Origin: Geothrix sp. 21YS21S-2
GTDB taxonomy: Bacteria; Acidobacteriota; Holophagae; Holophagales; Holophagaceae
NCBI RefSeq assembly: GCF_030846775.1
Contig: NZ_CP132910.1
Location: forward strand, 1,770,001-1,834,000
Reading direction: 5' to 3'
DNA: 64,000 bases
Part shown: piece by piece, positions 41,531 to 51,200 of the stretch
How the letters are laid out: each line of letters starts with the position of its first letter
How positions within the stretch are numbered: the stretch's first letter is position 1
The notes under the pieces: model-generated
The model's input: the letters and a program-made list of their open reading frames with translations, nothing else
What the model was told of the DNA's origin: nothing
The model's database searches: none
Program-made: the position numbers and the translations under genes

Positions 41531-41646
41531 GGATTTCCTTTCCCCGGCGTCCCAGCGAACCCTCAGGATTTGATCTACACTCTGGGGAACACAATGGGTT
41601 CCATCAAGTTGACGAACCGTTCGCGTGGCCACAGGCTGAACAGGTG

Positions 41647-42915
41647 ATGGCAAAGCTCAAGGCAGGCAAACCCGCAGATTCCGGCACCCGCATCGAGGAT
41701 CCCGCCATCCTCCGGGACGTGTTCCAGCAGCTCTTCGACCTGGAAGCGGAATTCCCCATCAAGGTGGAAGGCACCAGCACCCTGCCCTACTTCTGCTCCA
41801 TCCTGAAGCTCAACTGGGACGAGGGCTGCCTCGTCCTCAAGCTGGTCCGGCCCCTGCCCCACGAACTCCTGGTGGGGGCCGTCTTCCACTTCCTCTGCGC
41901 GTCGGGGGAACAGCGCTACGAAGGTTTCATCACTTTCCAGGGGCGGGAGGGCTACCTCCAGTACCGTTTCGAGCGGCCCGCCTACCTTCTCCTCTCGGAC
42001 CGCCGCGTCCACAAGCGCTACCCCTTCCGGCCCCGGGAGAGCGCCTACGTGATCCTCCAGGATTCCGGCGTACCGGGCCTGGGGGTGGCCGGGCCCCTGG
42101 TGAACATCGGCCTGGGCGGCCTGGCGCTGAGGGTGGACCGCATCATCCGGCTCGACACCGGGGTGCGGATCCCGCCCTCCACCGCCATCTTCGACCGGGG
42201 CAAGGGCTTCCCCCGGATCCGGGTGCAGGACCTCCCCCGGATCCACCTCCTGGAGGCCCGGGGCCTCTCCACCCACGCCACCGAGCGCGGCAACGAACTG
42301 GTCCTGGGGCTCGCCTTCACGTCCCTGACGCCCGAGGAGGAGGCCCTCATCCAGGCCGCGCTGGAGGTGCGCGACCGCCTGCAGCGGGGCGGCGGCCCCC
42401 GCTCGGAGGGGGGCGCCGTGGCCCTTCGCCCGGACGGTCGTCCCCTCCTGCCTGGCGAGGGGGCCCCCCCGGACGCGCAGGTGGCCGCGGGCGATATCCT
42501 GCGCCGCCTGAGGCGCCGCACCTCCACCGTGGGCCTGGTCATGCCCGAAGGCCCCCAGCGCGACGCCCTTGAGCTGCGCCTCCGGGAAGCGGGCTTCCTC
42601 CGTCTGCAGGTGGCCGGTTCCATGGCCCAGCTGGCCGCCCTGGCCGCCGGGGAGCCCCGCCGCCATGCCCCCCGCCTGTGCATCGTGGACCTCGCCGTGG
42701 CCCACGCCGGTGACGCCGAGCCCCTGGAGGCCGTGCGCTCCATCGAGGCCGAGGTCGCGGGCCTTGGGAGCATCCCCACCGCCATCCTCTGCGATGCCGT
42801 GGACCCCACGCTGCTGCTGGCCCAGGCCGACCTCACCCGGTTCGTGTCCACGGAAGTGGGACCGGAGTCCCTGGCGACCCTGGACGCCATGCTGGACCGG
42901 GATCCGGCGGAATAG
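41647..42915 (+). CDS. PilZ-domain protein with receiver-like C-terminus
   Basis: Protein of 422 residues. The N-terminal ~115 residues resemble the YcgR flagellar-brake domain. A PilZ domain follows, with the RxxxR element as RYPFR (about 125) and NIGLGG in place of the (D/N)xSxxG motif; the Ser is Gly. Cyclic di-GMP binding is likely but weakened. After an Arg/Gly-rich linker (~245-285) a Rossmann-like receiver-type segment ends the protein ([20 protein letters not shown]). It lacks an obvious full acidic pocket, so it may be a pseudo-receiver. ATG with ACAGGTG just upstream; monocistronic, 116 bp after ychF. Confidence 0.78.
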
Positions 42916-43019: not shown

Positions 43020-45158
43020 TCAGGCCTTCCTCACCGGCGCGACCTTCACGGGCTCGCCGCTGGCGGTGGTGCGGATCAGGTCGTCCTGCAGCCGGTTCCC
43101 GCCGCGCAGGATGGGGTCGGAGGCGTCCTTGGCCAGCAGGATCCCGCCCCGGGCGTTGCGGTGCACGACGCATTCCTCCAGGGTCACCTCGGCGTCCTCC
43201 AGCAGGAGGATGCCGGTGTCCTTGCCGTCCCGCAGGTCACAGCGCACCAGGAGGAGGCTGCCCCCGGGCTCGACCTTGGCGCCGGTGCCGGCATTGCCGA
43301 AGATCTCGCAGCCTTCCAGAACCCCGCGGCCCCGCCACGAGCAGACGACCCCGAAGGACCTGCCGTCGAAGATCCTGCAGGACTTCAGCTGCGCCGTGGC
43401 GCCGTTGTGGACCACCACGGCGGGTTCCTGGTTGCCGGAGAGTTCGCAGTCCTCCATGGCGAGCAGGCCCTGGTCCATGATCGAGCTGCCCAGCCCGTAG
43501 TTGCCCGCCATGCGGCAGCGCCGCAAGGTGATCGTGGCGCCGTAGGCCCCGTGCACGGCGCTCAGGGCATGACCCCCCAGGTCGCAATCGTCCAGGGTGG
43601 CCTGGCCCCGCTCCAGGACCAGGACGCCGATGGAGCGGGAGTCCATGACGCGGCAGCGGCGCAGTTCGGCCCGGGCCTCGGCCTCGACCTCGATGCCGCC
43701 GGCGGCCTGCCCCGAGACCTGGCAGTCCTCCAGCGTGGCCTGGGCGCCGGGCAGGAGGTGGACGCCCACGCCCGGGGGGTTGGTCAGCCTGCAGCCGTTG
43801 AGCAGCACCCGCGCGCCTGCGCCCACCCGAACCGCGGCCAGGAAGTCCCCGGCCAGATCGCAGGCCTCCAGGCGCGCCAGCGTGTTGGCCTCGGCCAGGA
43901 CGGCCGCCGGGGCCGCGCCCCGGACCGAGCACTTCAGGAAGGTCGGGTCCACGGCGCCGCCCGCGATCTGGATGGCGGGGCCCCCGGCCACGTCGAACGC
44001 GCAGCCCTCGGCCACGATCCGGCCCCGCAGCGCCAGCAGGGCCGCGGCGGAGTCCGCGCTGCGCAGCGTGAGCCCGCAAAGCCTGACGTCGCCGGCGTCC
44101 AGGACCAGACAGGGGCCCTTGGGGCTCTCGATCACCACCTCCGAGGCCTCCCCCTGGCCCTCGATGGTCACGTCCTTGTCCACGACGAGGGACTCCCGGT
44201 ACACGCCCGGCAGGACGACGATCCGGGTGCCGGGCTCGGCCTGGCGCAAGGCCACCCGCAGGCTCATGCACTGCGCCTTCCCGCCCTTGCCCACCATCAG
44301 CGTGCGGAGGCCGGCGGTGTCCGCGGGCTTCGGGAACGGGGCCGCCGCAGCCTCCCGGATGGCCTCGGCCAGGGCCTCGGCGGACGGGAATCGTTCCCCG
44401 GGCGCCTTGGCCAGGGCCCGGTCCGCCACGGCCAGGAGCGCCGGACTCAGTCCGGCCAGCTCCGCCGGGGTGAAGGGCGCCGGAGGCCGGCCCAGGATGG
44501 CGCCCAGGATGGAGGCGGGGGTTTCGCCCGCGAAGGGCCTGCGCCCCCCGGTGAGGATCTCGTAGAGCACGACCCCCATGGCGAAGAGGTCCGAGGCGGG
44601 CAGGGCCTTGCCGGTGTCGAGATACTCCGGGGCCATGTAGCTGGCGGTGCCCATCCAGTTGCCCTTCTGGGTGAGCTCCGACTGCTCCACCCCGGCCACG
44701 CCGAAGTCCATGAGCTTGGCCTGGGCCTTCCGGCCCAGCCGGCTCACGAGGATGTTGGCGGGCTTGATGTCGCGGTGGATGATGCCGTGCTCGTGGGCGA
44801 AGGCCAGCCCGTCGCAGGCCTGGGCCAGCAGCTCCAGCAGGTCCTCCCGGCTGTGCGCCCCGGAGCGGATGGCCGCCCCCAGGTCCTCGCCGTCCACGTA
44901 TTCCATGGCCAGGAAGTGCGTGCCTTCGTCCTCGCCGAATTCGAAGACCGTGACGATGTTGGGATGGTTGAGGGATCCCGCGGACCGGGCCTCCCGCTCG
45001 AAGCGCGCGTTGGCGTCGGGGGCGAAGCTCGCGTTCAGGCGGATGGTCTTGACCGCCACGGCGCGGTCCAGGAGGGGGTCCTTGGCGAGGTACACCTCGC
45101 CCATGGAGCCGTGCCCCAGCATCCTCACGATCTCGAACTTGCCGATCCGCTCGCGCAT
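43020..45158 (-). CDS. Ser/Thr protein kinase fused to a right-handed beta-helix domain
   Basis: Protein of 712 residues. Residues ~8-265 are a complete Hanks-type kinase: glycine loop [11 protein letters not shown], Lys37, HRDIKPANI (Asp130), DFG (Asp151) and MAPE. No transmembrane segment follows, unlike most PknB-type kinases. Residues ~310-700 are tandem short repeats of the pattern L..C.....G...V...A...L..C, a right-handed parallel beta-helix (pectate-lyase/carbohydrate-binding type) with a DUF1565-like start ([17 protein letters not shown]). The helix may bind a ligand or act as a scaffold; no lyase residues can be assigned. It is last in a six-gene minus-strand run, 11 bp after htpX. 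Confidence 0.9.
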
Positions 45159-45169
45159 CGGCTCCTACA

Positions 45170-46009
45170 CTACCGCATCTGGATCGCCATGGCATTGAGC
45201 CGTTCGATGCGCTTCTCCATGGGCGGGTGGGTCGAGAAGAGCGACAGGATCCCGCCGCCCCGCAGGGGGTTCACGATCATCATGTGCGCCGTGGCGGGCT
45301 GGGCGTCCCGCATGGGCACCTGCTGGTTGTACGCGGCCAGCCGGCCGAGGGCCGAGGCCAGCTGGTCGGGGCGGCCCGTGATGTGGGCGGAGTAGTCGTC
45401 CGCCTCGTACTCCCGGGAGCGGCTGACGGCCATCTGCAGGAGGAGGGCGGCGATGGGGCCCAGGATCATCACCAGGATGGCCACCAGGGGGCTGCCGGAG
45501 TCGTCGTCCCGCCGGGGGGTGAACCAGAAGGCCATGCGGGAGAGCAGCATGATGGCCTGGGCCAGCACGGCGGCGAGGCTGCCGATGAGGATGTCCCGGT
45601 GCTTGACGTGGCCCAGCTCGTGGGCGAGGACGCCCTCCAGCTCGGGACGGGACAGGGCCCGGAGGAGGCCCTCGGTGACGGCCACCACGGCGTGGTCCGG
45701 GTTGCGTCCGGTGGCGAAGGCGTTGGGGGTCTCGTCGGGGATGATGGCGACCCGGGGCATGGGCAGGCCGGCCCGCTGGGCAAGGTTGGCGACGATGGCG
45801 TACAGCTCCGGCGCGTCGGCGGGGCCGACGATCTGGGCCCGGTAGGCGGCGAGGACGATCCTGTCCGAGAAGAAATAGCTGACGCCGTTCATCAGGATCG
45901 CGAAGCCCAGGGCCAGCACGATCCCCATGTCCCCGTAGAGCAGGCCGCCCGCCCAAACCAGCACGCCCGTCATGATCATGATCAGTATGAATGTTTTAAT
46001 ACTATTCAT
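45170..46009 (-). CDS. htpX: Membrane zinc metalloprotease HtpX
   Basis: Inner-membrane M48 protease of 279 residues that degrades misfolded membrane proteins under stress. Two N-terminal hydrophobic segments (~5-48), zinc motif HELGH (130-134), a further hydrophobic pair after it, and the third ligand Glu in SREYEAD (~215). Full length. It begins 27 bp after the phosphatase stop and ends 11 bp before the kinase start, so it lies inside the signalling operon. Confidence 0.95.
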   Translation of the reverse strand: MNSIKTFILIMIMTGVLVWAGGLLYGDMGIVLALGFAILMNGVSYFFSDRIVLAAYRAQIVGPADAPELYAIVANLAQRAGLPMPRVAIIPDETPNAFATGRNPDHAVVAVTEGLLRALSRPELEGVLAHELGHVKHRDILIGSLAAVLAQAIMLLSRMAFWFTPRRDDDSGSPLVAILVMILGPIAALLLQMAVSRSREYEADDYSAHITGRPDQLASALGRLAAYNQQVPMRDAQPATAHMMIVNPLRGGGILSLFSTHPPMEKRIERLNAMAIQMR

Positions 46010-46036
46010 GCGTCACTCCCGTGCCCCCATTATCCC

Positions 46037-47617
46037 TCAGAGGCGCTTGATCACCACCAGGGTGACGTCGTCCTTGAAGCCGGCCCCGTCCAGGTGCTTG
46101 AAGGTCCGGGTCAGGAGCCGCTCGAAGAGCTCGTCGGCGCTGGCGCCGGGGTTCTCCAGGACCGTGGCCACCAGCGGTTCCTCACCCAGGTCCTCCCCCG
46201 CCAGGTTCTCGGCCTCGGACACGCCGTCCGTGAAGATGACCAGCGTATCGCCGGGATGCATGGTGGCCCGCCCTTCGCTGAACACCGCGCCGGGAAGGAG
46301 GCCCACCATGGGCCCCGTGGGCTGCAGATGCTCCAGGGGGCGCCCGTCCCCGGGCACCAGGAGGGGCGGGTTGTGCCCGGCGTTCACGTAGCGCAGATCG
46401 CCGGTGGCGGGGTTGAGGCTGCCCATGAAGAGGGTGGCGAACCGGTTCCGGTCCCGCACTTCGTTCATGCGTTCGTTGAGGCGCAGCGCCAGCGCGCCCC
46501 AGTCCACCACGCGCCGGTCGGCCATGGCCCGCAGGAAGGCCGAGAGCTGGGTCATCATGAGGGACGCCGGCAGGCCCTTGCCCGAGATGTCGGCCAGGGC
46601 GAGATGGAGCCGGGGGCTGCGGTCCAGGTCGGAGGCCATCCAGAGGTCGTAGAGATCGCCGCCCACGGCCTGGTAGGGCAGGTTGGCGGCGGCGCACTGC
46701 CAGCCTTCGGGCTCGGGCAGGCGCTTGGGGAGGATGCGGCGCTGGATGTTGCGGGCCAGCTCCAGGTCCTTCTCCAGCTTCATCGCCTGGAGCCGCGTCT
46801 CCCGCAGCTCGAGGCTGCCCAGCTGGGTGGAGGTGATGTTCAGGAGCGTCTGGAAGAACAGCTCGTCGTCGTCGTTGAGCTTGCCCTGGGCGGGCTCGGC
46901 GGCGTAGGCGAAGCCGTGGCTGTGGTCCTGGTCCCGGAGCTCCACGGCGTGCACGAGGCCCTTCTCCTCCACGAGCCCGTTGATGCTCTCCCCCTCCAGG
47001 ACCGGCGGCAGCTTGCCCAGGCCCCGGCTGTGGATCACGGTGCCGTCGGCGCCCACCACCAGGAGGCGCTGGATGTGGAACTCCCCGGCCAGCGTGTTGG
47101 CCATGAGGCGGATGAGTTCGCCCCGGGTCTCCACCTCCCCGAGGTTCCGGGTGAGGTCGAACAGGGTGTTCAGCCGGGACAGCTGGAGGGCCAGGGCCCG
47201 GTTCTGGTCGCTGCGGTTGGCCTCCAGGCGCCGCCAGGCCAGGAGGGGCGCGGAAATGGACAGCAGGAGGGTGAGGGCGGCGGGCACTTCCGGGGTGCGC
47301 ACCACCAGGAAGCCGTAGGGTTCCTCCCCGTAGGCCCAGGGCAGGCTCGTCCACCCCGGGCCCGGGTGGGTGGGGAACGGCGAGGCGTTGCCCCGCAGGA
47401 AGATCCACCGGGTCCCGTTCCAGATGCCGCCCTGGGGGGCCTTGGCGATGCCCAGGGCCGTCACCCCCACCAGGTGGATCAGATCCTCCTCGGTGGCCTG
47501 GGCCGGGAAGGTTTCCAGGAAGTCGATGATGGGCAGCAGTTCCTGGGTGCCTTCGGGAATGCGGGTGCACAGCTCCCGCAGGCGCTCGAAGGGGGGAAAG
47601 CCGGCCGGATCGGTCAT
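46037..47617 (-). CDS. RsbU/SpoIIE-type PP2C serine phosphatase with GAF-like sensor
   Basis: Protein of 526 residues. A helical region and a GAF-like domain (~155-280) are joined by a coiled coil (RLQAMKLEKDLELARNIQRRILP) to a SpoIIE/PP2C domain (~310-525). Metal-site motifs: GGDLYDLW, ADISGKGLPA, NAGHNPPLL, GDTLVIFTDGVSEA and DDVTLVV. Such enzymes dephosphorylate an RsbV-type antagonist; rsbV and rsbW homologues lie upstream in the same run. The start at 47617 overlaps the TPR gene's stop (ATGA); the longer frame upstream is antisense-like. Confidence 0.92.
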   Translation of the reverse strand: MTDPAGFPPFERLRELCTRIPEGTQELLPIIDFLETFPAQATEEDLIHLVGVTALGIAKAPQGGIWNGTRWIFLRGNASPFPTHPGPGWTSLPWAYGEEPYGFLVVRTPEVPAALTLLLSISAPLLAWRRLEANRSDQNRALALQLSRLNTLFDLTRNLGEVETRGELIRLMANTLAGEFHIQRLLVVGADGTVIHSRGLGKLPPVLEGESINGLVEEKGLVHAVELRDQDHSHGFAYAAEPAQGKLNDDDELFFQTLLNITSTQLGSLELRETRLQAMKLEKDLELARNIQRRILPKRLPEPEGWQCAAANLPYQAVGGDLYDLWMASDLDRSPRLHLALADISGKGLPASLMMTQLSAFLRAMADRRVVDWGALALRLNERMNEVRDRNRFATLFMGSLNPATGDLRYVNAGHNPPLLVPGDGRPLEHLQPTGPMVGLLPGAVFSEGRATMHPGDTLVIFTDGVSEAENLAGEDLGEEPLVATVLENPGASADELFERLLTRTFKHLDGAGFKDDVTLVVIKRL

Positions 47618-49179
47618 GGGCGGGTCTCGGTCCTCTTGCGCATCCGGTCCATGGCCTCGGGGTAGAGGTCCTCGGCGCAGTTGGGGCAGATGCCGTGGGA
47701 GAAGGTGGCCGACGTGTGCTCGGAGACGTAGCTCTCCAGCTGGGTCCAGTAGCCCTGGTCGTTCCGGATCTTCTTGCACTGGGCGCAGATGGGAAGTAGG
47801 CCGCTGAGGGTCTTGATCTCGTTCATCCGGTCCTGGAGCTCGAGGTTGATCTTGGCCAGTTCGGCGTTGGACGCCTGCAGCGTCCGGCGGTTCCGGCGCA
47901 TGTTCTTGTTGTAGATGGCCAGCGCGACGATGGCGGTGGCCAAGGTGCCCAGGCCCAGCACCAGCACGGCCAGGAAGTACCGGTTCCGCTCCAGCTGGAG
48001 CGAGGAGATCACCCGCTGCTTTTTCAGGGCCTCGATCTCGTTGTCCTTCTTGATCGTCACGATCTTCATCGTCGATTCGGCGATCTTGTTGCTCTCCTGG
48101 ATGGTGTAGATGGAGTCCTTGATCTCCATGGCCTGCTTGAAGGCGCGGAAGGCCTCGGCGGTTTCGCCCTTCTTCTCGTGCAGCTCGGAGATCAGCTCAT
48201 AGCTGCGCTTGAGCTCGTCCCGGGCGTTGATCACCTTCGCAAGCGCGGCGGCCTCCCGGGCGATGGGGATCCCCTGCGCATAGGAACCCGAGAGCAGGTG
48301 CATGCGCGCCGTGACGTTCATCACCTGGACGAGGCCATGGCGGTGGTTGAACTTCCCGTACTGGGCCCGGGCCAGGCGGAGGTACTCCCGGGCCTGGTCG
48401 AACTGCCGCAGTTCCGAGTAGGTCATTCCGAGGTTCATGTAGTTGTAGGCCAGGTAGCTGTCGTCCCGCGTCTCCCGGGAGAGGGCGAAGGCGGCGAGGT
48501 GGTTCGCGAGGGCGTCGTCCAGCCGGCCCATCTTGAACTGGGAGAAGCCGATGTTGAGCCGGGTGAGGATGAGCCTCTTGTTGTCCGGGTGCTGCTCGAT
48601 CCGCTTGAGGATCTGCTCGTAGTATTCGATCGCCTGATCGTACTGGCCGCTGTTGTGGTACACGACCCCGATGAGGTTCAGGGACTGGGTCACGGCCTTC
48701 TCGAGTCCCAGCTCCTCGCGCAGGCGAAGGGATTCGATGGCCTCGTCCAGGGCCTGGCTGTAGGACCCGATGAAGGTGTAGGTGATCGCCATGGCGTTGT
48801 GGGCCTTGGCCATGCGCTCCTTGTCGCCCAGCTGGGTGCTCAGGGCCAGGGCCCGCTTGCCGAAATCGATGGCCTTGGGGTAGTCGCCGGACTGGCCCGA
48901 ACAGAAGGAGGTGGACGTGAGGAAGGCGGCCTCCTTCTCCCGGTCCCCCTGCTGGATGGCCAGGGCGAGCCCTTCCACGGCATAGGCCAGCGCCTCCTGG
49001 GGAGAGGCCGACTCGGTGCTGTTGGCCAGATCCAGAAGCGCCACCATCCGCGCCCGGCCGGTAAGGGTGGGCAGGGCGGCCTTCATGGACTCGACCGAGG
49101 GTTCCCCCGGCTGGGCGTGGGCAGCAAGGAACCCGAGACACATGATGACGATTTTCAGGTTCCTGACGAATGAGAGCAC
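47614..49179 (-). CDS. TPR-repeat membrane sensor with C-terminal Cys motif
   Basis: Protein of 521 residues with a signal peptide (1-23), about seven tetratricopeptide repeats (~45-370; for example ALDEAIESLRLREELG and QYDQAIEYYEQIL), one transmembrane helix (~403-425), a short coiled coil and a cytoplasmic tail. The tail carries a Cys motif LLPICAQCKKIR...FSHGICPNC. I recall this tail at the end of sensory proteins in several bacteria; it looks like a zinc or redox site. The TPR part would be periplasmic. GTG start. Coupled to the phosphatase gene by ATGA, so it is a natural candidate for controlling that phosphatase. Confidence 0.85.
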   Translation of the reverse strand: MLSFVRNLKIVIMCLGFLAAHAQPGEPSVESMKAALPTLTGRARMVALLDLANSTESASPQEALAYAVEGLALAIQQGDREKEAAFLTSTSFCSGQSGDYPKAIDFGKRALALSTQLGDKERMAKAHNAMAITYTFIGSYSQALDEAIESLRLREELGLEKAVTQSLNLIGVVYHNSGQYDQAIEYYEQILKRIEQHPDNKRLILTRLNIGFSQFKMGRLDDALANHLAAFALSRETRDDSYLAYNYMNLGMTYSELRQFDQAREYLRLARAQYGKFNHRHGLVQVMNVTARMHLLSGSYAQGIPIAREAAALAKVINARDELKRSYELISELHEKKGETAEAFRAFKQAMEIKDSIYTIQESNKIAESTMKIVTIKKDNEIEALKKQRVISSLQLERNRYFLAVLVLGLGTLATAIVALAIYNKNMRRNRRTLQASNAELAKINLELQDRMNEIKTLSGLLPICAQCKKIRNDQGYWTQLESYVSEHTSATFSHGICPNCAEDLYPEAMDRMRKRTETRP

Positions 49180-49246
49180 TGCCTGGCCTCCCTGGTGAGC
49201 ATGGCCGTGCGCCGGTTGCGTATCCAGACCCTGATAATCCCACGAA

Positions 49247-49681
49247 TCAGGCGGGAGTGCGCTTTATCATGCAGCACTCGCTGCGTCCGTCGGTGTCCTT
49301 GAAATGAATCTCATCCATGAAACGGCTCATGAGCAGGAGGCCCAGTCCGCCCTTGCGGGGGTGCTTGACGTATTCCTTGGGGTCGGGCAACACCACATCC
49401 TCGTCGTGGAGGCCGGTGCCGGTGTTCCAGATGCGGATCTCCAGGGCCTCCTCGCGGAAGCGGAGCTCGATCTCCACCTGGTGGGTGCTCTCGCCCCGGT
49501 AGGCGTGGATGATCACGTTGGTGACGGCCTCGTCCACGGCGATGGAGACCTTGGCGGCGGTGGCGTCGTCCATGCCCGCCACCAGCGAAGCCCGCTTGGC
49601 CAGGCCCGTGACCAGGTTCAGGTACCGCGTCTGGCTGGGGATGACCAGCCGGAAGCTCTCGGGATCGGGAGCGGCCCGCAC
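49247..49681 (-). CDS. RsbW-type anti-sigma factor / serine kinase
   Basis: GHKL ATPase of 144 residues with the N-box in DEAVTNVIIHAY and the G-boxes in IRIWNTGTG and KGGLGLLLMSRFMDE. Proteins of this class bind and inactivate a sigma factor, or phosphorylate an antagonist, in partner-switching systems. The GTG start follows directly on the stop of the STAS gene. No sigma factor gene is in the window, so the final target is unknown. Confidence 0.92.
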   Translation of the reverse strand: MRAAPDPESFRLVIPSQTRYLNLVTGLAKRASLVAGMDDATAAKVSIAVDEAVTNVIIHAYRGESTHQVEIELRFREEALEIRIWNTGTGLHDEDVVLPDPKEYVKHPRKGGLGLLLMSRFMDEIHFKDTDGRSECCMIKRTPA

Positions 49682-50035
49682 TCAGCCCTTCCCGCCCATG
49701 GCCTGGAAGGCTTCGGTTTCGGTGGGGAAAACCCGGTAGAGCTGGGTGAACCCGAGGGTGTCGAAGATCGCGAAGACGTTCTCGTGGAGGTTGCAGAGGA
49801 GGATGTCCCCGCCGTTGTCCCGGACCGTCTCGATGAGGCCCATGATGGCCCCCAGGCCGGCCGAGCTGATGTAGTTGAGGGCCTGGCAGTCCAGGAGGAT
49901 GGTGAAACGTCCTTCGGCCACGAGCCTTTCGAGGGCTTCCTCGAACATCCGGACCGTATGGGCGTTGATGAAGCCCTCGGGCCGCATCACCGCGACACCG
50001 TCCACCTCGCGCACCTGGATCAAAAGATCGGCCAT
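49682..50035 (-). CDS. RsbV-type STAS anti-anti-sigma factor
   Basis: STAS-domain protein of 117 residues with the phosphorylatable Ser region in NYISSAGLGAIMG and the usual ILLCNLHENVFAIFDTLGF helix. When unphosphorylated it should bind the RsbW homologue encoded directly after it and release the RsbW target. It is the first gene of the run; the 124-bp divergent gap to the GAF-like gene should hold its promoter, but no clear motif was seen. Confidence 0.93.
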   Translation of the reverse strand: MADLLIQVREVDGVAVMRPEGFINAHTVRMFEEALERLVAEGRFTILLDCQALNYISSAGLGAIMGLIETVRDNGGDILLCNLHENVFAIFDTLGFTQLYRVFPTETEAFQAMGGKG

Positions 50036-50159
50036 GCCTGTTCACTCCCTGTTGGGGCCCTGGAATCCTGGGTGAATCCTATCGCCCCGGCGGAATAATT
50101 GCCAGCCGGGGGTTGGCCGGGCGGGTTTTGGGGTACCATTGCCTCAAATCGGGAACGAC

Positions 50160-51200
50160 ATGGACGAGAATGTGCAGGCCTCTCTGAAGAATCTGCTGCA
50201 GCAATGGGTCGACACCCGGCAGCAGGCCCTCCTCGAGCAGGTGATGCTCGCCTGGAGCGACGCCACCGGGCACCTGGCGCCGGACGACGCCCTGGTGGCC
50301 TCCATCCTGGCCTCCGTGCCGGTGCCCGAACCCGTGCAGGTGGTGGCTCCCGAACCGCCCCCTGCCGTCCCGGCGACCGACGGGAACCTGGGCGCCGGGC
50401 TGGACCTCATGGAGGACGCCCACACCCAGGGCGAGGTGCTCAAGCACCTCCTGGACGCCACCCAGCTCTTCGTGGAGCGCAGCGCCCTTTTCGTCCTCAA
50501 GCAGGGCATCGCCACCGTCTACGCCCACCGGGGCTTCGACGGCGAATCCCCCAAAGCCGGCAGCCCGGTGGTCCCCCCCGCGGACCTGGAGGAGCTGCTC
50601 GGCGGCCGCGCCCGCCTCGTGGCCGGCCCCGGCCCGGCCTACCAGGCTCTCCTGGCCCCCCTGAGCCGCTTCCAAGCCCGGGACATCCTCATCCTCCCCC
50701 TGCGCCTGCGCAGGAAGACCGTGGCGCTGCTCCTCGTGGACAGCGGCCTGCAGGACGCCATCGACCACCCCAGCCACGTGCGGGCCCTGGCGCTCTGCGC
50801 CGAGGCGCGCCTGTCCTACCTGGCGGGCGTCAAGGAGGAGGAGCGGTCCGCGCCGGTGGAATCCCACCCCTCCACCCTCACCCAGCGCATCCCGGATGCC
50901 ATCGCGGAGCCCCAGGGGGCCCTCCTGGACCCCCGCGTGCGCATGAACGCCGAACGCAGCGCCCGGGTGCTGGTGGGCGACATCGAGCTCTACTTCCCCG
51001 CCAAGGTCACCCAGGCCCAGCAGGAAGGCAGCCTCTACCCCGTCCTCCGGGACGAGCTGGACCGGAGCCGGGCCTCGTTCGTGGAAAGATACGGCCTGGA
51101 CCTGGAAAACCAGCACCAGATTTTCTACCAAACGGTTGTCCAGCAGCTATGCGCGGGAGACCCCTCCCGGCTCGGGCCGGCTCCCTGGGGCGCGCACTAG
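50160..51200 (+). CDS. GAF-like domain protein of unknown function
   Basis: Cytoplasmic protein of 346 residues. An Ala/Pro/Val-rich linker (about 58-80) separates a short helical N-terminus from a central GAF-like domain (~90-225; ERSALFVLKQGIATVYAHRGF, ILILPLRLRRKTVALLLVD). The C-terminal ~90 residues have a pattern (ARVLVGDIELYFPAKV, FVERYGLDL) I recall beside FYDLN/TIGR02300-type genes in related bacteria but cannot name. The ATG at 50160 is preferred over a TTG seven codons earlier. It is divergent from the rsbV run and 71 bp before the FYDLN gene. Confidence 0.7.
   Translation: MDENVQASLKNLLQQWVDTRQQALLEQVMLAWSDATGHLAPDDALVASILASVPVPEPVQVVAPEPPPAVPATDGNLGAGLDLMEDAHTQGEVLKHLLDATQLFVERSALFVLKQGIATVYAHRGFDGESPKAGSPVVPPADLEELLGGRARLVAGPGPAYQALLAPLSRFQARDILILPLRLRRKTVALLLVDSGLQDAIDHPSHVRALALCAEARLSYLAGVKEEERSAPVESHPSTLTQRIPDAIAEPQGALLDPRVRMNAERSARVLVGDIELYFPAKVTQAQQEGSLYPVLRDELDRSRASFVERYGLDLENQHQIFYQTVVQQLCAGDPSRLGPAPWGAH

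Follow-up and report, generated by a model that had tools for sequence, protein, structure and literature searches.

Partner switches of the Rsb/SpoII type are the closest described relatives of the locus reported here. In Bacillus subtilis, RsbV/RsbW/RsbU and SpoIIAA/SpoIIAB/SpoIIE each combine a STAS protein carrying an acceptor serine, a single-domain GHKL protein and a SpoIIE-type PP2C phosphatase. The available part of a report on Chlamydia trachomatis describes the same three-protein logic for RsbV1/RsbW/RsbU, directed at a target that is not of the SigB type but the primary sigma factor, sigma-66; RsbU of this species sits in the membrane and contains a HAMP linker, and no linkage to HtpX is mentioned in that part, two points in which it is unlike the system described below (PMC4552016). 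SypA/SypE, BtrV/BtrW, RbaV/RbaW and HmpV/HmpW are STAS switches of Gram-negative bacteria or cyanobacteria. Their targets are unclear and they lie in other gene neighbourhoods than the present one; a non-sigma partner is considered possible for several STAS switches (PMC8256260). Literature searches returned no paper joining partner switching, RsbW, SpoIIE and Acidobacteria, and none combining HtpX with partner switching.

The window analysed here, a stretch of 64,000 nucleotides from Geothrix sp. 21YS21S-2, belongs to a genome of a single contig of 5.25 Mb, which is closest to genomes of the Holophagaceae (Acidobacteriota), the family referred to below. Six codirectional genes on its minus strand (Table 1) encode the same three protein types as the B. 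subtilis switches, together with a TPR membrane protein, HtpX and a Ser/Thr kinase. The locus differs from the B. subtilis switches in that the genome has no SigB/SigF-type factor, the G1-box Asp of RsbW is replaced and HtpX is linked to the module. Judged from its sequence, the locus is a variant of a known partner switch, the unexpected part being that a strongly constrained kinase has had its G1 Asp replaced throughout the class.

Table 1. Position of the six genes and the upstream element in the window
Feature	Position	Strand	Basis
Promoter-like element CTGGCA-N18-TAGGAT 5' of STAS gene (putative promoter)	50076..50105	-	Conservation
STAS protein (RsbV/SpoIIAA-like), acceptor Ser58	49682..50035	-	Pfam STAS 7e-21; TIGR00377 above cut-off
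RsbW/SpoIIAB-like GHKL protein, GTG start	49247..49681	-	Pfam HATPase_c_2 2e-23
TPR membrane protein	47614..49179	-	Pfam TPR_12 2e-33; GTG start, GGGAGG before
SpoIIE/RsbU-type PP2C phosphatase	46037..47617	-	Pfam SpoIIE 1.5e-46
HtpX membrane zinc metalloprotease (HELGH)	45170..46009	-	Pfam Peptidase_M48 5e-38
Hanks-type Ser/Thr kinase fused to right-handed beta-helix	43020..45158	-	Pkinase 1e-45, Beta_helix 8e-32

The partner-switch module and its probable transcription unit

The gene positions and spacings of the preliminary description were confirmed throughout. The GTG start of rsbW directly follows the TGA of the STAS gene and a 67-bp gap then leads to the TPR gene, which overlaps the phosphatase gene by ATGA; 27 bp separate the phosphatase gene from htpX, and 11 bp separate htpX from the kinase gene. 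NCBIfam models agree with the assignments of the STAS, RsbW-like and HtpX-like proteins, mostly at scores under the equivalog cut-offs.

The proposal that the STAS, RsbW and phosphatase genes form a partner-switch module is supported by their families, by the acceptor serine and by the phosphatase Asp residues. The STAS protein aligns with TM1442 and SpoIIAA, and Ser58 is invariant in all 39 homologues compared. In the phosphatase the catalytic metal-binding Asp residues are invariant, and the GGDxYD, DISGKG, TDG and DDVT motifs are invariant or nearly so. Its structural model has a pLDDT of 86, and the SpoIIE domain is matched by Foldseek to RssB, Rv1364c RsbU, SiaA and SpoIIE. The N-terminus of the phosphatase is predicted to contain two alpha/beta segments ordered as in GAF domains, an assignment made from secondary structure. 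A second module elsewhere in the genome (L289, G000:C1:4434000-4452500) encodes an FHA-GAF histidine kinase, a response regulator, an RsbW-like HATPase that keeps the G1 Asp, and a receiver-SpoIIE phosphatase; no STAS gene was seen beside it.

Expression of the genes as one transcription unit is favoured by the distribution of the promoter-like element. CTGGCA-N18-TAGGAT lies at a near-fixed distance before the STAS gene in 41 of 58 family loci (2 of 58 after shuffling) and is absent in these loci before the internal genes of the run, HtpX included. Its conservation before the STAS gene only fits a single operon, and terminator-like sites within the run are at chance level; these observations make one transcription unit of six genes very probable but do not prove it. 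The element was also considered as a marker of a wider regulon, but the exact pattern has three matches genome-wide against three for the reversed control, so that no regulon can be read from it.

Several features flank the run. Four loci of genus g7 (L253, L254, L256, L257) have, immediately before the STAS gene, an apparent tRNA-Leu gene, recognised by eye, where the promoter-like element would otherwise be. The divergent gene upstream of the run (50139-51200, plus strand) is kept in most of the family and is matched by neither Pfam nor NCBIfam; Foldseek matches its model (pLDDT 81) to GAF domains, and its C-terminal part is helical and conserved. Downstream, a convergent gene (41533-42915, plus strand), also without a Pfam or NCBIfam match, adjoins the kinase gene in many family loci.

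Layers of conservation in the run

The TPR, phosphatase, kinase and HtpX proteins were searched against 81 genomes of the class Holophagae and RsbW against 199 genomes of the phylum Acidobacteriota, and neighbourhoods were mapped from 60 further stretches and 80 named loci. The trio of STAS, RsbW and phosphatase genes is present in all family loci (58/58 and 57/57). It also occurs in both remaining families of the class and in several more distant Acidobacteriota. The order STAS-RsbW-PP2C-HtpX recurs in nearly all sampled Holophagaceae, more than expected by chance. Gene order, which the preliminary description had offered as a check on its reading, is thus conserved for these four genes, not for the TPR gene and only partly for the kinase. 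The run is made up of layers: an old trio, a family-wide HtpX, an optional kinase and a recently arrived TPR gene.

HtpX adjoins the phosphatase gene in 53 of 55 family loci, mostly across a gap of 30-70 bp. The protein has the HELGH motif and the full-length similarity of the M48 family (NF002826, 362.9 bits, just under the cut-off of 369), and is unlike other HtpX proteins in its fixed position beside a partner switch across one family. In most of this family the linkage sits within a conserved block that also holds the unrelated genes ADA, tig and ychF, so that synteny alone is weak proof of it there. HtpX might therefore be a passenger whose position reflects only this generally conserved block. 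Family f2 and G043 indeed carry the gene at another site, and the only HtpX of genus g9 is a more divergent one, again at another site. We regard this explanation as doubtful, since in the termite-gut genus g7 (L253-L257), where the other neighbours are gone, the trio and HtpX are still together in four of five loci (L253, L254, L256, L257), and since the gap to the phosphatase gene is so short and no conserved promoter-like element precedes HtpX. The linkage to the trio claimed in the preliminary description thus proved reliable, but a place for HtpX within the circuit did not follow: the reduced genus g5 retains HtpX, no switch phosphatase was found there, and RsbW was not found in the one genome of that genus that was tested. 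HtpX is therefore separable from the switch.

The kinase-beta-helix gene is found in 31 of 48 family loci; in the other 17 it is missing and the switch is retained. It is missing from the locus in Geothrix fermentans, G. terrae, G. oryzisoli and others, and G016 has a full-length relative that is unlinked. A place for the kinase in the circuit is accordingly not supported.

The TPR gene has the narrowest distribution. At this locus it occurs only in the window's clade (G000, G055, G070); it is missing from 56 of 57 named family loci and, among the five genomes of its own genus, from two (G019 and G067). Ten other genomes encode relatives at unrelated loci, in five cases near shared ABC-transporter-like genes and with no partner switch. 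The gene is best explained as a recent, lineage-specific insertion. Its dN/dS of 0.25-0.29 in the three genomes indicates purifying selection, and it is probably functional in this clade. The predicted topology is an N-terminal signal-like segment, the TPR region, one TM segment, a coiled coil and a C-terminal Cys motif.

The Cys motif (LPICAQCKKIRNDQGYWTQLE...SHGICPNC) occupies residues about 440-512 of the protein, P0003 (47644-47862, minus strand), and has no Pfam match. It occurs seven times in the genome, for example at the C-terminal end of a PAS-like, a response-regulator-like and a Reg_prop-repeat protein, and most Holophagaceae genomes contain several copies. It may be a zinc-binding motif for output or docking that has not been described before.

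These distributions bear on the preliminary description, which read the six genes together as one envelope-stress circuit: the TPR protein would be the sensor at the envelope and regulate the phosphatase, with HtpX and the kinase as outputs or feedback. Six contiguous genes with very short gaps, the ATGA overlap of the TPR and phosphatase genes, the selection on the TPR gene and the conserved linkage of HtpX all speak for such a circuit. However, the TPR gene is confined to one clade of one genus, the kinase is dispensable, HtpX occurs without the switch, and the switch persists unchanged where both accessories are absent; no conserved envelope sensor is tied to the switch. Nothing was found that points to an envelope input, and the phosphatase has a cytoplasmic N-terminal region of its own. 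Of the proposed circuit the partner switch is supported, whereas the TPR input, the membership of the kinase and the release of a classical sigma factor (see below) are not, and we consider the six-part circuit improbable as a unit.

The altered G1 box of RsbW

RsbW aligns with the RsbW structure 6m36 and with SpoIIAB, and its N-box residues Glu51 and Asn55 and the glycine lid (Gly111-112-114) are invariant. In GHKL/HATPase proteins the G1-box Asp binds adenine. This residue, expected of a partner-switch kinase, is replaced by Asn86 (codon 49424-49426) in the window. Of 58 named family loci, 56 encode His at this position, as do the remaining families of the class; most outgroups keep the Asp, and so do the two RsbW-like proteins of this genome that rank next.

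The replacement was followed in a larger sequence sample as well. In the RsbW tree a branch with support of 90/82 sets every sequence lacking the Asp apart, consistent with one change. A single origin is therefore probable, and a single loss of the Asp, followed by a change from His to Asn in the window's genus, is the simplest history. RsbW proteins from other Acidobacteriota families (L160-L163; G105, G112, G206 and G157), which have His or Tyr at the G1 position, fall on the Holophagae side of this tree.

RsbW also has the lowest dN/dS in the operon (0.02-0.04), indicating the strongest purifying selection. The G1 Asp has been called absolutely conserved, and the D84A mutation inactivates the single-domain HATPase protein SspH (PMC9137472). 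With the lowest dN/dS and without this Asp, RsbW is, as far as sequence comparison can tell, a constrained but atypical member of the kinase family.

Such a G1 box could be a sign that RsbW has lost its kinase function. RsbW would then be a pseudokinase that acts as a binding partner only, Ser58 of the STAS protein being phosphorylated by another kinase, either the Hanks-type enzyme of the operon or some other. The change of the Asp to Asn or His across the class, the reported effect of its mutation in SspH and the presence of a Hanks-type kinase in the operon are in keeping with this explanation. We nevertheless think it unlikely, because the N-box Glu and Asn and the glycine lid, which a pseudokinase could dispense with, are invariant, and because the operon kinase is missing in many genomes that keep the switch. 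As a broader and tentative suggestion, Holophagae and some other Acidobacteriota may possess an anti-sigma kinase with a rebuilt nucleotide pocket. This protein would either prefer a different nucleotide or be a pseudokinase that leaves the phosphorylation of its partner to a different kinase, and the switch would act on something other than a SigB-type factor.

Candidate targets and proposed operation of the switch

The sigma factors of the genome that contain region 3 are RpoD, an RpoD/RpoS-like group-2 factor and FliA, and its other region-2 matches look like ECF factors. No SigB/SigF/SigG-type factor was found in the genome, the SigBFG model scoring 95 and 120 against a cut-off of 234. A SigB-type target was therefore rejected: the target of the switch is not the classical one, and the release of a classical stress sigma factor drops out of the account.

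Two further candidates were considered. FliA is unlikely as an obligate target in view of genus g8, which shows only RpoD and the group-2 factor and keeps the switch; the group-2 factor is unlikely in the same role in view of G053 and G043, which keep the switch and have no match to it. Both comparisons are to be read in the light of incomplete assemblies. The remaining candidates are RpoD, an ECF factor and a non-sigma partner. By analogy, a primary sigma factor, as described in the available part of the Chlamydia report (PMC4552016), or a non-sigma partner, as in other STAS switches, fits better.

We consider it reasonably probable that the locus encodes an Rsb/SpoII-type partner switch with an atypical nucleotide pocket and a target other than SigB or SigF, co-transcribed with a housekeeping HtpX and with an accessory kinase and TPR protein. 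One conserved promoter would transcribe the trio and HtpX and, in this lineage, the kinase-beta-helix and TPR genes. The N-terminal region of the phosphatase may sense a cytoplasmic signal, upon which the phosphatase would dephosphorylate Ser58 of the STAS protein; the unphosphorylated STAS protein would bind RsbW and so release its target. RsbW would reset the switch by re-phosphorylating the STAS protein, using a pocket that has Asn or His in place of the adenine-binding Asp. HtpX would be a co-expressed envelope-maintenance enzyme outside the switch, and the TPR protein and the kinase would be accessories.

The locus carries a warning against deducing function from a single operon, as the TPR sensor, the member that most invites a functional reading, arrived last. 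Measurement of nucleotide binding and phosphorylation by RsbW would tell whether such kinases work without the adenine-binding Asp. The class appears to possess a switch without SigB, the kinase of which lacks a residue called absolutely conserved although no other protein of the operon is under such strong constraint, a combination that can be tested.
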